From Cloacibacillus evryensis DSM 19522 (GTDB lineage: Bacteria > Synergistota > Synergistia > Synergistales > Synergistaceae), in contig NZ_KK073872.1 of NCBI RefSeq assembly GCF_000585335.1, positions 1,198,501 through 1,262,500 of the forward strand: a DNA stretch of 64,000 nt. The letters run 5' to 3'. Position numbers and translations under genes: made by a program. The notes beneath the pieces were generated by a model. The model ran no database searches, was not told the DNA's origin, and was given only the letters and a program-made list of their open reading frames with translations. Below, in pieces: positions 6,511 to 18,324 of the stretch. Each line of letters opens with the position of its first letter. The first letter of the stretch is position 1.

Positions 6511-6537
6511 ATTATATGCCATAATTAAATTTTGCAA
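6511..6537 (-). promoter_or_regulatory. Promoter of the molybdopterin oxidoreductase, probably leaderless
   Basis: On the minus strand TATAAT (6511-6516) has TTGCAA upstream with a 15-bp spacer. The predicted transcription start falls at or next to the ATG at 6503, leaving no room for a ribosome-binding site. Confidence 0.5.
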
Positions 6538-6541
6538 CCGC

Positions 6542-6570
6542 TTGCATAATTTAAAAATATACTGTATAAT
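6542..6570 (+). promoter_or_regulatory. Promoter of the pyr operon
   Basis: TTGCAT and TATAAT boxes are separated by exactly 17 bp, one of the best sigma-70-type promoters in the window. It diverges from the oxidoreductase promoter and would start the pyr leader RNA near 6577. Confidence 0.75.
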
Positions 6571-6597
6571 ACCGTCAGTTCAAATCAAAGGGGAGGC

Positions 6598-6639
6598 ATG
6601 ACGGATGAAAGAGCTGATTTCACGAGATATACGGCGTGA
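6598..6639 (+). CDS. pyr leader peptide (13 codons)
   Basis: A short ORF MTDERADFTRYTA begins at ATG 6598 directly behind GGGGAGGC and stops with TGA at 6637-6639. Its last codons overlap arms 1 and 2 of the alternating hairpins in the leader, so a translating ribosome would change which hairpin forms. No family match is expected for a peptide this short. Confidence 0.45.
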   Translation: MTDERADFTRYTA

Positions 6640-6674
6640 TATTCACGGATTTGCCGTGATGCCGGTTATTTTTT
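6619..6674 (+). promoter_or_regulatory. pyr attenuator 1: alternating hairpins and U tract
   Basis: Four arms follow each other: TTCACG (6619), CGTGAT (6635), TTCACGG (6642) and CCGTGAT (6654). Arm 1 can pair with 2, 2 with 3, or 3 with 4. The 3:4 hairpin (TCACGG/CCGTGA) is followed within about 10 nt by TTTTTT and reads as a terminator; 2:3 would be the antiterminator. The leader-peptide stop lies inside arm 2. Confidence 0.55.
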
Positions 6675-6676
6675 AG

Positions 6677-6711
6677 AAGAGGCTGTTCCGTGAGGGGCGG
6701 TCTTATTTTTT
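6677..6711 (+). promoter_or_regulatory. pyr attenuator 2 with PyrR-site-like loop
   Basis: AAGA-GG-CTGTTCC pairs with GGGGCGG-TCTT around GTGA, leaving a GG bulge, and is followed by ATTTTTT. The apical sequence TTCCGTGAGG matches the known PyrR-binding loop pattern UCCNGNGAGG at all but one position. It sits 44 nt before pyrR, where PyrR-regulated terminators or anti-antiterminators occur in other bacteria. Confidence 0.5.
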
Positions 6712-6754
6712 GCAAAAAGTTAAATTTAAAAACAAAAGCTTAGGAGGGATTTTG

Positions 6755-7306
6755 ATGGCGGAACTTAGAGAAAAGGCGAAGCTGATGAACGCGCAGGACC
6801 TTAACCGCGTCATTCGCCGTATCGCCCACGAGATGGTGGAGCACAACAAGGGCACCGACAACATGATACTGGTAGGTATCCACAGGCGCGGCGTCTATAT
6901 CGCGCGCCGGCTTCAGAAGCTCATCGAAGAGGCCGAGGGAGCGAAGGTGCCCTGCGGAGAGCTGGATATCACGCTCTACCGCGACGACCTGACGACGCTC
7001 TCCGAGCAGCCGATAGTCCACAGCACGAGGATGCCCGGAGACATCGCGGGAAAGCATATCTTTCTTGTGGACGACGTGCTCTTCACCGGGCGTACGGTCC
7101 GCGCGGCGCTTGAGGCCCTTGTCGACCTCGGACGCCCGCAGATAGTTCAGTTGGCCGTCATCATCGACCGCGGCCACCGCGAGCTGCCGATACACGCGGA
7201 TATCTGCGGCAAGAACGTGCCGACATCGAAGAACGAAGTCATCGAAGTAAAAGTGGAAGAACTCGACGGAAAGGACGAGGTGGTGATCTGTGAGCGCGAT
7301 GCTTAA
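6755..7306 (+). CDS. pyrR: Bifunctional pyr operon regulator / uracil phosphoribosyltransferase
   Basis: PyrR binds pyr leader RNA in response to UMP/UTP and also converts uracil and PRPP to UMP. The 183-aa protein has the phosphoribosyltransferase signature VDDVLFTGRTVRA (105-117) and the family segment DITLYRDDL (71-79). The ATG at 6755 is set by AGGAGG 8 nt upstream. It is the first gene of the operon and lies right behind a leader with a PyrR-like loop, so autoregulation by attenuation is likely. pyrB starts 17 nt before its stop. Confidence 0.95.
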   Translation: MAELREKAKLMNAQDLNRVIRRIAHEMVEHNKGTDNMILVGIHRRGVYIARRLQKLIEEAEGAKVPCGELDITLYRDDLTTLSEQPIVHSTRMPGDIAGKHIFLVDDVLFTGRTVRAALEALVDLGRPQIVQLAVIIDRGHRELPIHADICGKNVPTSKNEVIEVKVEELDGKDEVVICERDA

Positions 7307-8246
7307 TGAGATCGGACAGATGACCTGGCGTCATCGCAGCGTGATAGACCTTGACTGCTGGACGAGAGAGGAACTCTATTTCTTCCTCGACCAGTCCCGC
7401 CATATGGAGAACGTGATGGACCGTCCGGTCAAAAAGGTCCCCGCGCTTCGCGGCAAGATGTGCGTCAACCTCTTCTTTGAGAATTCGACGCGCACGCGGG
7501 TCTCCTTTGAACTTGCGGAAAAGATGCTCTCCGCCGACGTCGTCAACTGGTCGGTCTCCGGCTCGAGCGCCGCGAAGGGCGAGACGATGCGCGATACCGC
7601 CTGGACCCTTGAGGCGATGGGCGCGGATATCGTCGTAATGCGCCACGGCGCGGTCGGCGCGGCCCAGTACCTTGCCTCAAAGCTCAAGCGCGGCATCGTC
7701 CTCAACGCGGGCGACGGTACCCACGCGCACCCGACGCAGGCCCTGCTCGATGTCTACACCGCCTGGAAGCACTTCGGAGACCTCGAGGGGCGGAAGATCG
7801 CCCTCGTCGGCGACGTCCTTCACAGCCGCGTCGCGCGCAGCGACGTCATAGCCTTCAAAACGATGGGCTGCGATGTGGTGCTCTCCGGGCCGCCGACGCT
7901 GATGCCCCGGGAGATCGAACAGCTCGGCGTCAAATACGACCGCGACCCGCGCAAGGCGGTCGAGAAGGCCGATATGGTATATCTTCTGAGGATACAGCGC
8001 GAGAGGCAGCAGGACGGCCTCTTCCCCTCGGTCGACGAGTACCACCGCTGGTGGGGCGCCGACGAAGAGCTTATGAAGTACGCCAACCCCGGCGCGCTCG
8101 CGATGCATCCGGGCCCGATCAACAGAGGCGTCGAGATCGCCTCCGAAGTTGCGGACGGTCATCAGAGCGTGATACTCGAACAGGTGCGTTCAGGAGTCGC
8201 TACCAGGATGGCGCTTCTCTATCTCTGCGGCGGAGGTGCAAGATAA
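7290..8246 (+). CDS. pyrB: Aspartate carbamoyltransferase catalytic chain
   Basis: ATCase condenses carbamoyl phosphate and aspartate in the second step of pyrimidine synthesis. The carbamoyl-phosphate loop FFENSTRTRVSFE (62-74) and the HPTQALLDVYT motif are intact; the length of 318 aa is normal. No pyrI regulatory chain is present. The GTG at 7290 has AGGTGG 7 nt upstream; ATG 7299 is an alternative start. Overlap with pyrR and with pyrC (TAATG) implies translational coupling. Confidence 0.95.
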   Translation: MSAMLNEIGQMTWRHRSVIDLDCWTREELYFFLDQSRHMENVMDRPVKKVPALRGKMCVNLFFENSTRTRVSFELAEKMLSADVVNWSVSGSSAAKGETMRDTAWTLEAMGADIVVMRHGAVGAAQYLASKLKRGIVLNAGDGTHAHPTQALLDVYTAWKHFGDLEGRKIALVGDVLHSRVARSDVIAFKTMGCDVVLSGPPTLMPREIEQLGVKYDRDPRKAVEKADMVYLLRIQRERQQDGLFPSVDEYHRWWGADEELMKYANPGALAMHPGPINRGVEIASEVADGHQSVILEQVRSGVATRMALLYLCGGGAR

Positions 8247-9550
8247 TGGAAAAATTTCTCTTCAAAGATTTTAAAATATTCAACGGCAAAGAATTCATAA
8301 AAGAGGACTGCCTCCTTGTGGAGGACGGCAAAGTCGCCGGGCTGGGCCGCGATCTCGCCTGCGAGGGCGCGGAGGTGGTCGAGGGCGGCGGACGCCTGCT
8401 GACCCCCGGGTTCATCGACCTGCACGCCCACTTCCGCGATCCCGGCGGCGAGTGGAACGAGGACCTCAACAGCGGGGCGCACGCCGGAGCGGCCGGCGGA
8501 TTCACGACGCTCGTCGCGATGCCGAACACCAAACCTGCGGTCTCCGAGCCGGCGCTAATCGAATATGTCGTCAGCCACGGAGCGGCGGCGAAGGCCTCGC
8601 GCATACTGCCGGCGGGCTGCGTCAGCAAGAACCGCGAGGGCAAAGAGATCTGCGAGATGGAAAAGATGACCGAGGCGGGCGCGGTGTTCTTCACGGACGA
8701 CGGCGCGCCGGTCGCGACGAGCCAACTGCTGCGGCTCGCGCTGCTTTACACGGGCAAAAAACTTCCCCGCGTCATGGAGCACCCCGAAGAGATCAGCCTC
8801 TTTAAGGGCGGACAGGTCCATGAGGGCCGCGTCAGCGCGATGTCCGGACTCAAGGGCATCCCCGGCGCTTCGGAAGAGATCGACGTGGCGCGCGGCATCG
8901 CGCTCGTGCGCGACACGGGCGGACGCATCCACTTTACCCACCTTTCAAGCGCGGGCGCGGTGGAGCTTATCCGCAACGCGAAGCGCGCCGGACTCGACGT
9001 CACCTGCGACACGACATTCCACCACCTCACTCTCAATGAGAACGCGGTCATCAACAGCGGATATAACTCGCGCTTCAAGGTGAACCCGCCGCTGCGCTCG
9101 GCCGACGACCAGAGGGCTCTCTGGGAGGGCATAAAGGACGGCACGATCGACGCGATAGTTACGGACCACGCTCCGTGGCACATGGACGAGAAGGACGAAC
9201 CCTTCCAGGAGGCCCCCTTCGGGATCGCCTCTCTCGAGTGCGCCGTCGCCGTGCTCCTCGACTATCGCAGCCGCAACTATCCCGACGTTCCCCTCGAGCT
9301 GCTCTTCGCCAAGATGACGTCCGCCCCCGCGTCGCTGCTCCCCGAAAAGTGGCAGGGACTCGGACGTATCGAGGCGGGCGCTCCGGCCGACCTCACCGTC
9401 ATCGACGAGGACCGGACGCGCATCGTCGACTGCCGGACCTGGAAGAGCAAAGCCCGCTGCTGTCCCTGGGAGGGCGTCGCGCTGACGGGCTGGCCGGTAA
9501 TGACCTTCGTCGAGGGACGCAGGATCTGGCAGGACGAGGAAGAACTCTAG
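8246..9550 (+). CDS. pyrC: Dihydroorotase (class I)
   Basis: The zinc enzyme cyclises N-carbamoyl-aspartate to dihydroorotate. H60-x-H62 with R64 (HAHFRDPG), the MPNTKP segment and TDHAPW late in the chain are the expected metal and substrate residues. At 434 aa it is the long class I type found in pyr operons of Gram-positive-like organisation. The ATG at 8246 overlaps the pyrB stop (TAATG) and has GGAGG upstream. A gap of about 100 bp with its own signals separates it from pyrF. Confidence 0.95.
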   Translation: MEKFLFKDFKIFNGKEFIKEDCLLVEDGKVAGLGRDLACEGAEVVEGGGRLLTPGFIDLHAHFRDPGGEWNEDLNSGAHAGAAGGFTTLVAMPNTKPAVSEPALIEYVVSHGAAAKASRILPAGCVSKNREGKEICEMEKMTEAGAVFFTDDGAPVATSQLLRLALLYTGKKLPRVMEHPEEISLFKGGQVHEGRVSAMSGLKGIPGASEEIDVARGIALVRDTGGRIHFTHLSSAGAVELIRNAKRAGLDVTCDTTFHHLTLNENAVINSGYNSRFKVNPPLRSADDQRALWEGIKDGTIDAIVTDHAPWHMDEKDEPFQEAPFGIASLECAVAVLLDYRSRNYPDVPLELLFAKMTSAPASLLPEKWQGLGRIEAGAPADLTVIDEDRTRIVDCRTWKSKARCCPWEGVALTGWPVMTFVEGRRIWQDEEEL

Positions 9551-9653: not shown

Positions 9654-10364
9654 ATGGAGAACAACAACTGCGGCCTTATAGTGGCGCTGGACCTGCCGGC
9701 GCTTGACGATGCGAGAAGATTCCTTGACAGGCTGGATAAAGCGACAAAATATGTAAAGGTCGGGCCGCGCCTTTACGCGCTCGGCGGCGCCTCCTTCGCG
9801 AAGGAGATAATCGGCCGCGGTTATGAGCTTTTTCTCGACCTTAAACTGCATGACATCCCCAACACCGTAGCCTCGGCGGTCGAGCCGCTTTCCGAGCTTG
9901 GTCTCTGGGCGCTCACTATACACACCTCCGGCGGCTATGAGATGATGGCCCGCAGCGCCGCGATGCGCGACAAGACCGGCAGCCGCATGAAGCTGCTTGG
10001 CATCACCGTGCTCACCAGCCTGGGCGGAGAGCTATGGAGCGACGTCCATCCCGGCTGCGACATGCGGCAGGCGCTGATCGGGCGCGCGGAGACGGCGCAG
10101 CGCGCGGGACTCGACGGCATCGTCTGTTCGCCGCTTGACCTTGAACTTCTCAGGGGCCGCGCGGAAAATTTGCTGCGCGTCGTCCCGGGGATCCGCGCGA
10201 AAAAGGTGAGCACCGAGGACCAGACGCGCGTCGCCACCGCAAAGGACGCGGCGGAGGCCGGAGCCTCGTACATAGTCGTCGGACGCCCGATACTCGAGGC
10301 GGCCGATCCCATCGCCGCGGCGAAAGATATACTTAAAACATTAGGGGAGGCTTCACACAGATGA
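9654..10364 (+). CDS. pyrF: Orotidine 5'-phosphate decarboxylase
   Basis: OMP decarboxylase makes UMP from OMP. The D-x-K-x-x-D catalytic array is seen in LDLKLHDIPNT (61-71: D62, K64, D67), and VVPGIR and VVGRPI near the end bind phosphate. At 236 aa it is the bacterial group I form. The start ATG 9654 follows GGAGG. Its stop overlaps the pyrE start (ATGA). Confidence 0.95.
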   Translation: MENNNCGLIVALDLPALDDARRFLDRLDKATKYVKVGPRLYALGGASFAKEIIGRGYELFLDLKLHDIPNTVASAVEPLSELGLWALTIHTSGGYEMMARSAAMRDKTGSRMKLLGITVLTSLGGELWSDVHPGCDMRQALIGRAETAQRAGLDGIVCSPLDLELLRGRAENLLRVVPGIRAKKVSTEDQTRVATAKDAAEAGASYIVVGRPILEAADPIAAAKDILKTLGEASHR

Positions 10365-10960
10365 GCTGTTCTTGCGAAAAAAACGAAATTTCAAAGAAGA
10401 TACTTGAAATGATGAAGGAGAGCGGCGCGCACCTTCAGGGCCATTTCAAACTTACCTCCGGGCTGCACAGCGACAACTATATGCAGTGCGCCTTGATGCT
10501 GCGCTATCCGAAGTTTGCCGCCTGCGCCGGCGAGGAGCTCGCGAAACTGCTCGCGCCCGCGAAGCCCGATTTTATCCTTTCACCCGCGCTCGGCGGCCTG
10601 ATAATCGGCCATGAAGTCGCGCGCGCGCTGGGCGTGCCCTTTATCTTCACCGAGAGGGTGGACGGCGAGATGCGCCTTAAAAGATTCCCTCATCCTGGCA
10701 AACTTCGCTTCGCTCTCGTGGAGGACGTCTGCACGACCGGCAAATCATCGCGCGAAGCGGCGCGGATACTTGCGGCGGAAGGCGCGGAATGGGTCGCCTC
10801 TGGCTGTATCATAGACCGGCGCTCTCCGGACTGCCTGCCGGACTGGGACCTCAAATCGCTCGTAAAGGTCTGCTTCGCCACCTACAGCGCGGAGGAATGC
10901 CCGCTCTGCAAAGAGGGACTGCCCCTTGTAAAGCCGGGAAGCCGTCCCGACGAAAAATAA
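10361..10960 (+). CDS. pyrE: Orotate phosphoribosyltransferase
   Basis: The enzyme joins orotate and PRPP to OMP. The PRPP loop ALVEDVCTTGKSS is at 118-130 and the GHFKLTSGLHSD segment at 27-38. A C-terminal CPLCKEGLPLVKPGSR stretch is typical of this subgroup. It overlaps pyrF by 4 nt. carAB, pyrD and pyrK are not in the window, so carbamoyl-phosphate synthesis and dihydroorotate oxidation are encoded elsewhere. Confidence 0.95.
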   Translation: MSCSCEKNEISKKILEMMKESGAHLQGHFKLTSGLHSDNYMQCALMLRYPKFAACAGEELAKLLAPAKPDFILSPALGGLIIGHEVARALGVPFIFTERVDGEMRLKRFPHPGKLRFALVEDVCTTGKSSREAARILAAEGAEWVASGCIIDRRSPDCLPDWDLKSLVKVCFATYSAEECPLCKEGLPLVKPGSRPDEK

Positions 10961-17686: not shown

Positions 17687-17742
17687 ATACCCGATAGGTT
17701 ATAAAAACAGTTTAAACGAGTGTTTTATACCCTGTCGGGTAG
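17687..17742 (+). terminator. Bidirectional terminator between tsaD and the hipA remnant
   Basis: A 20-nt imperfect inverted repeat (TATACCCGATAGGTTATAAA with TTTATACCCTGTCGGGTA, two positions unpaired) sits between the convergent genes. A/T runs flank both sides. The hipA stop codon lies inside the right arm. Confidence 0.6.
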
Positions 17743-18324
17743 AATTTTTAACCTTGCCGCGCGGGCGGCGATCAGCTCCCGATATTGACAGCGTTTCTCC
17801 TCCGGCAGGAAGCTCCGCTCTATGAGGTCGAGCATCGCGGGGAGCCGTTTTGCGAATCGGGCCGCCGCCCTTTTGTAATGCTTTTCGTTCAGCCCCGCCG
17901 ACTCGGTAAACTTAAGGAAATCGGCCTCTTTAAAATTGCTCTTTTTGCCGTTCATCGGCATGGCAAACTCCTCGGGGTCGTCCTTTGCGGGAATGACCAG
18001 CCGTGTTGAGAGCAAATCGTAGGCGGGAGCGAGCCTCCTTTCTCCTCCGTCGTAAATAAGCGAAAAATTTTTCAGGTGCATATCGCTGTTGCCGGTGAGG
18101 AAGATAAAGACCGCCGTGTCAAGCAGAATGGAGAGGTCGTAGCCCGGTGCCGCGGAATAACGGCGCAGATTCTTCGCGACAAGCTCCATTGATCCCCGGT
18201 ATTTATTTTCCGTCATATGCTCCGTGATCTGGCAGAAATCTTCCATGTGCCTCAGCCTCTTTTTGGCTTCATACCTTTTTATGCCGGCTCTGTCCATCAT
18301 AAAATCATAAAATAGGGGTTGCAA
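17725..18324 (-). pseudogene. C-terminal remnant of a HipA-like Ser/Thr kinase
   Basis: The 199-aa frame matches the C-terminal lobe of HipA toxins: HMEDFCQITEHMTENKYRGS, the catalytic-loop GNSDMHLKN with Asp, His, Lys and Asn, and APAYDLLST. The whole N-terminal lobe, including the ATP-binding loop and the autophosphorylated serine region, is absent. Upstream the frame closes at a TAA (18346-18348) inside the rex promoter. The first codon is only a TTG with no ribosome site, and no hipB is adjacent. It is therefore most likely a truncated, inactive copy. Confidence 0.75.

Follow-up and report, generated by a model that had tools for sequence, protein, structure and literature searches.

Pyrimidine attenuation of the pyrBI type and of the PyrR type are usually regarded as having been invented separately by enterics and by Firmicutes. 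The pyr leader described here raises the question of whether both can act on a single RNA: an earlier note, made from the DNA letters alone, had claimed that a leader-peptide attenuator and a PyrR-binding terminator stand in series in front of the operon. Here, we examine a segment (G000:C1:1198501-1262500) from the 3.49 Mb genome of a member of the Synergistota (“the window”, i.e., the whole stretch of 64,000 nucleotides that was analysed; the phylum was read from named relatives), together with a comparison set comprising the regions upstream of pyrR from 118 Synergistota genomes. Our preferred answer is that control of the pyr operon probably rests on a LacI-type DNA operator and a single RNA terminator coupled to translation, and not on a pair of RNA attenuators in series. 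The leader is flanked on one side by a divergent molybdopterin oxidoreductase gene and on the other by the pyrR-pyrB-pyrC-pyrF-pyrE genes:

6755..7306, plus strand: pyrR, bifunctional regulator/uracil phosphoribosyltransferase (NCBIfam NF003549, 249 bits against a cut-off of 138)
7290..8246, plus strand: pyrB (NF002032)
8246..9550, plus strand: pyrC (TIGR00857; start codon picked by eye from the ORF)
9654..10364, plus strand: pyrF (NF001273)
10361..10960, plus strand: pyrE (TIGR01367)

Two pyrR genes per genome are present in G030, G031, G032, G043, G103 and G122. Far downstream in the window, on the minus strand (17725-18324), an ORF resembles the C-terminal part of a HipA kinase, the N-terminal part being apparently missing as judged by eye.

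Between the promoter and pyrR, the leader contains the following elements:

6590..6596, plus strand: Shine-Dalgarno (SD) sequence of the leader ORF (GGGGAGG), with an anti-SD duplex of −11.2 kcal/mol for the ATG at 6605
6605..6676, plus strand: leader ORF of 23 codons, MKELISRDIRRDIHGFAVMPVIF, with an SD spacing of 8; the sister genome also has 23 codons
6632..6665, plus strand: hairpin 1, formed by the arms described in the earlier note; stable here, not conserved
6666..6674, plus strand: U-rich tract adjoining the terminator, a possible UTP-sensitive pause region (from the U fraction in 15 family leaders)
6679..6711, plus strand: intrinsic terminator (the attenuator), with a 10–11 bp stem, a GUGA loop and a U6 tail; covariation with 13 relatives

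The terminator, which had been described as the second of two U-tract hairpins, is confirmed, and it is the only element with strong comparative support. In an alignment with 13 relatives from the same family, 95% of the cells for its 11 pairs are paired, 7 of the 11 pairs have double changes, and covariation is 0.55, as against 0.38 for shuffled and ≤0.24 for slid alignments. By contrast, the four alternating arms that end in the first U-tract hairpin are present and fold well here (z of −3.75 for hairpin 1 and −3.3 for the whole region) but are absent from the sister species (0.8 and 0.1, respectively) and from nearly all relatives, with z near 0 for the hairpin 1 region in most of them; as a conserved device, the alternating arms were rejected. 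The proposed leader peptide, a 13-codon ORF with a good ribosome site (6598-6639), met the same fate: the ORF is there, but its ATG lies 1 nt past the SD, and it is kept in the sister species alone. Comparison with the leaders of relatives thus leaves the arms and the 13-codon ORF unconserved and the terminator at 6679-6711 conserved. The ribosome-coupled half of the earlier claim is nevertheless supported, by way of a different ORF (6605-6676) and a different terminator (6679-6711).

Several features of this ORF are consistent with a role in attenuation. Its stop codon is 2 nt ahead of the terminator, and it starts ~29–36 nt past the −10 box in most relatives. Leaders with the operator described below contain a strong-SD ORF, beginning as a rule ~30 nt past the −10 box, that runs up to or through the terminator in 48 of 52 cases as scored; the four exceptions, all from family f3, reflect the start chosen by the script, and a neighboring start gives an open ORF. 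Counted by genus, 21 of 22 have a leader that is open as far as the terminator, compared with 12.2 ± 2.1 expected from shuffles, while the openness of this one leader's ORF, taken singly, has a chance of 0.38. Translation would thereby be brought to an intrinsic terminator ahead of the first gene, in a geometry conserved across genera. Substitutions in close pairs exhibit no codon-position bias (46/40/49), and an excess at third positions, considered as proof of a selected peptide, was not found; therefore, what is kept is the openness and length of the ORF, and not the peptide. An open frame without peptide conservation would be expected of a leader that senses position, as pyrL does, but not of an amino-acid leader. 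Consistent with this, the leader ORF has no codon run of the kind found in his or trp leaders, and its peptide is unconserved. Among the 15 leaders of the window's family, U makes up a fraction of 0.43 of the final 25 nt ahead of the terminator and 0.30 of the remaining ORF; the pre-terminator fraction is 0.29 in other families, such that U-richness is clear in the window's family only.

As an attenuator, this is a version of a type described before. Published experiments show that the ribosome represses terminators located a few bp past a stop codon (PMC4824070), and that coupling over pyrL prevents termination at the pyrBI terminator (PMC5021804). The pyrBI leader and that of the window share a strong SD, a leader ORF beginning 25–34 nt after the −10 box, a U-rich stretch, and a terminator overlapped or abutted by the ORF. 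In the E. coli sequence, the ATG is at +25 after the −10, the ORF has 44 codons and the pre-terminator U fraction is 0.36; the corresponding values in the window are +34, 23 codons and 0.40. The two differ in that the window's ORF of 23 codons stops 2 nt before the terminator, its first gene is pyrR, and a LacI-type operator lies upstream; a response to UTP is something we infer here.

That operator, which the earlier note did not mention, overlaps the promoter:

6533..6546: palindromic operator TGCAACCGCTTGCA over the −35 box (from exact genome sites and recurrence across the phylum)
6542..6570, plus strand: promoter, TTGCAT (6542-6547), 17 bp, TATAAT (6565-6570), with spacing fixed among relatives

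The promoter claimed in front of the operon is real, and the transcription start (+1) is predicted from the −10 spacing to be near A6577. The 14-bp palindrome TGCAACCGnTTGCA covers the −35 box and has a central CG, as expected for a LacI-family operator. Exact TGCAACCGnTTGCA sites occur twice in the 3.49 Mb genome, once in the pyr leader and once in that of an NCS2 nucleobase permease gene (family models leave both uracil and xanthine possible as substrate), and a weaker variant precedes the genome's only LacI-family gene. In clade relatives, the operator is found ahead of the same two genes. Across the phylum, it is upstream of pyrR in 62 of 118 genomes, with conservation mostly of 1.6–1.9 bits per core base and a gap to the −10 box of 17–18 nt in all operator leaders.

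The single LacI-type regulator gene (L248, G000:C1:2433213-2433791) tracks this site. A homologue is present in 59 of 62 genomes with the operator and missing from 49 of 56 others; at the genus level, Fisher's test for co-occurrence of gene and palindrome gives p=1e-10, a figure inflated by shared descent across the phylum. Six of the seven genomes with a homologue and no pyrR operator belong to f7 (g50, g51); where the upstream region of these was read, pyrR is not the operon head, and several carry a single operator site at another place. The regulator gene also has the site at its own promoter: an operator variant is positioned 28–34 nt before its start in all genomes examined from the window's clade, as well as in G009 and G182, with three mismatches in this genome. 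The protein is 193 aa long here and 191–197 aa in the window's clade (L248; relatives L249-L259, L300-L317), compared with 258–282 aa in other families, so its ligand domain is reduced; it looks as if that domain had been trimmed and the DNA-binding part retained. It scores under every NCBIfam cut-off. From these patterns, the LacI-type protein presumably binds the palindrome and would respond to a ligand. With PurR, CytR and UriR of the LacI family, the system shares a palindrome with a central CG, a LacI helix-turn-helix (PF00356) and targets in nucleobase metabolism; it differs in the regulator's length of 193 aa and in its candidate targets, the de novo pyr operon and an NCS2 permease. The parts of a large LacI regulon survey covered by a term search contain neither Synergistota nor uracil and place pyrimidine biosynthesis under PurR alone (PMC4052901).

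What is established is the anatomy of the leader, with its geometry and conservation, and the fact that repressor gene and operator occur together; these findings suggest control in two stages. At the first, the sole LacI-family repressor would limit initiation from the −35 palindrome, and the same repressor would also govern the nucleobase permease gene and its own gene. The second would be one attenuator that works through ribosome coupling, as in E. coli pyrBI. On reaching the stop codon, 2 nt before the terminator, a ribosome would mask the terminator's 5′ arm, such that polymerase continues into pyrR; if polymerase runs ahead of the ribosome, as could plausibly happen when UTP is abundant and there is no pause in the U-rich tract, the terminator would form. 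Neither stage would require PyrR bound to this leader, and PyrR would serve here mainly as an enzyme.

Relatives place this arrangement in a wider context. Synergistota pyr leaders fall into four states: (i) a classic PyrR attenuator; (ii) a PyrR hairpin over the ribosome site of a leader ORF; (iii) a leader ORF without a PyrR hairpin, as in the window; (iv) the operator alone. Operator and PyrR box are nearly exclusive, with 54 of the 118 genomes having the operator only, 35 the box only, 8 both and 21 neither. The Rfam model of the box (RF00515) matches before pyrR in many relatives, with E down to 9e-9. Box-bearing leaders form two groups. The first (most of f6, and g10-14 of f1) has no strong ribosome site after the box. 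In the second (f2, f4, g2, g22), the 3′ arm AAGG of the hairpin merges with or abuts the SD of a leader ORF of 16–49 codons (29–34 in operator-bearing genomes). A PyrR hairpin overlapping the leader SD is found in L023-L025, L031-L033, L102, L104, L136, L140, L145 and L155, and is absent from the window leader. A PyrR hairpin and a leader peptide do occur combined in a single device in relatives. The pyrR leader of Thermus ZO5, which reportedly combines PyrR with a translating ribosome and no antiterminator in a proposed mechanism, likewise has a leader ORF and a terminator in front of pyrR-pyrB; the hairpin over the leader SD in f2, f4, g2 and g22 fits that proposal, whereas the window has no PyrR hairpin. 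In a PyrR tree, the first group falls in one clade with strong support (100/100), which includes an f6 g31 member of ambiguous status and a single boxless leader, and the second is scattered among boxless leaders; the tree is midpoint-rooted and does not give the direction of change. At the other extreme, the operator and a short 5′ UTR are all that remains in the leaders L026, L099, L113, L122 and L193 (f7 g49). Bases near the promoter (GCCUCC) could pair with the pyrR ribosome site (GGAGGC) in these leaders. The in-between designs of relatives appear to link the window's arrangement to classic PyrR control.

Bacillus-type PyrR attenuation (RF00515) resembles the arrangement here in that pyrR heads the operon behind a terminator and the PyrR protein is encoded; no PyrR hairpin was found in the window, whereas classic elements occur in other Synergistota. 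The serial arrangement of the earlier note, in which leader-peptide attenuation is followed by PyrR on the loop of the second hairpin, with PyrR-UMP directly stabilising the terminator, is highly improbable. The reported 9 of 10 matches to the PyrR pattern are literally true, and UUCCGUGAGG conforms to CNGNGA and is identical to the core of the f4 PyrR hairpins (L136, L140), but the pattern is common by chance: allowing at most one mismatch, the window has 102 occurrences of TCCNGNGAGG, against an expectation of 74. A small enrichment at the loop does remain after the match was otherwise mostly rejected as a binding site. In a set of 262 terminator-like hairpins, CNGNGAGG spans the loop in four, of which three belong to pyr leaders of the window's clade as their attenuators; two of the three (the window and L007), however, look like shared ancestry, and a GNRA loop closed by C-G easily yields the pattern. 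In the sister species the loop is disrupted (GUUGG), and it varies within the clade; this leader has no hairpin combining a lower stem, an AAA bulge and a CNGNGA loop. RF00515 has no match in the leader even at E=10, and none among the matches listed for the genome. Without a model match, a lower stem or an AAA bulge, and with a variable loop, control by both in series is therefore unsupported in this genome, and contact between PyrR and the terminator loop is unlikely. PyrR also has H in place of the R146 of classic PyrR (numbered as in B. subtilis, by alignment). This position is R in nearly all PyrR-box genomes without the operator, f4 having H, and is H, Q, S or A in every operator-bearing genome examined, PyrR-box carriers included. 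Loss of this RNA-contact residue is not decisive proof of lost RNA binding, because f4 has H together with a true box.

Two further alternatives concern the extreme 5′ end. A diverged PyrR site might cover the leader ribosome site there, as a true hairpin does in the gated relatives; the arrangement in f2, f4, g2 and g22 makes PyrR-gated leader translation a plausible ancestor, and AGUUCAGA...GGAGG near +1 recurs in several families. We consider this very unlikely for the window, given that the PyrR model has no match, the would-be stem is mostly upstream of the predicted +1, with no hairpin from +1 on, and the pairing specificity is just p=0.04. Even less credible is a start-site switch like that of E. 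coli pyrC/pyrD, in which a 5′ hairpin, CCGUCA/UGACGG, would hide the leader ribosome site with upstream starts only. Some relatives (L107, L026) have strong hairpins, and pairing of the first nine bases after the −10 with the SD region, own versus swapped, was equalled by 854 of 20000 permutations, a weak signal on which this candidate was set aside. Moreover, initiation 2–3 nt after the −10 is required, the sister species loses one pair, and the hairpin is absent in L008, L015 and L021. The remaining alternative, unlikely though deserving of more weight, holds that the terminator acts as a fixed brake, with the leader ORF either letting a constant share of transcripts through or sensing general translation, and that only the LacI-type operator responds to pyrimidines. 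The unconserved peptide and the U-rich tract, which is not phylum-wide, agree with this, as do close relatives that keep the operator and have lost the terminator. The short pyr leaders L006, L010 and L011 (G169, G171, G172; PyrR ~92% identical) retain the operator and have no convincing terminator, so the attenuator is dispensable. Against a fixed brake, leader ORF and terminator are kept in most operator-bearing lineages, and the U-rich tract and stop-terminator spacing of the window's own clade fit UTP-sensitive coupling.

A broader reading of the phylum, which we put forward tentatively, is that pyrimidine synthesis and nucleobase uptake in Synergistota are under the control of a short LacI-type repressor, autoregulated and not described before, and that the PyrR RNA site was lost stepwise in the presence of this repressor. 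The site may have been fused first over the leader-ORF ribosome site and then dropped, leaving a pyrBI-like attenuator before pyrR, whose protein would no longer regulate this RNA. Searches of the open-licence literature, whose coverage is incomplete, turned up no report of this operator, of Synergistota pyr attenuators, of a LacI-type pyr regulon, or of a PyrR-gated leader state in the phylum. Synergistota would hold both kinds of control in one phylum, together with an intermediate in which the PyrR hairpin sits atop the ribosome site of a leader ORF. The operator of the candidate LacI-type repressor largely replaces the PyrR box, such that a switch between RNA-based and DNA-based pyrimidine control becomes testable with few leaders, and a poorly studied phylum gains a concrete candidate regulon. 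Lastly, window positions 6571-6594 and the corresponding regions of several families have C-rich bases between the −10 and +1 and an AGUUCAG-like start, beyond what a promoter needs.
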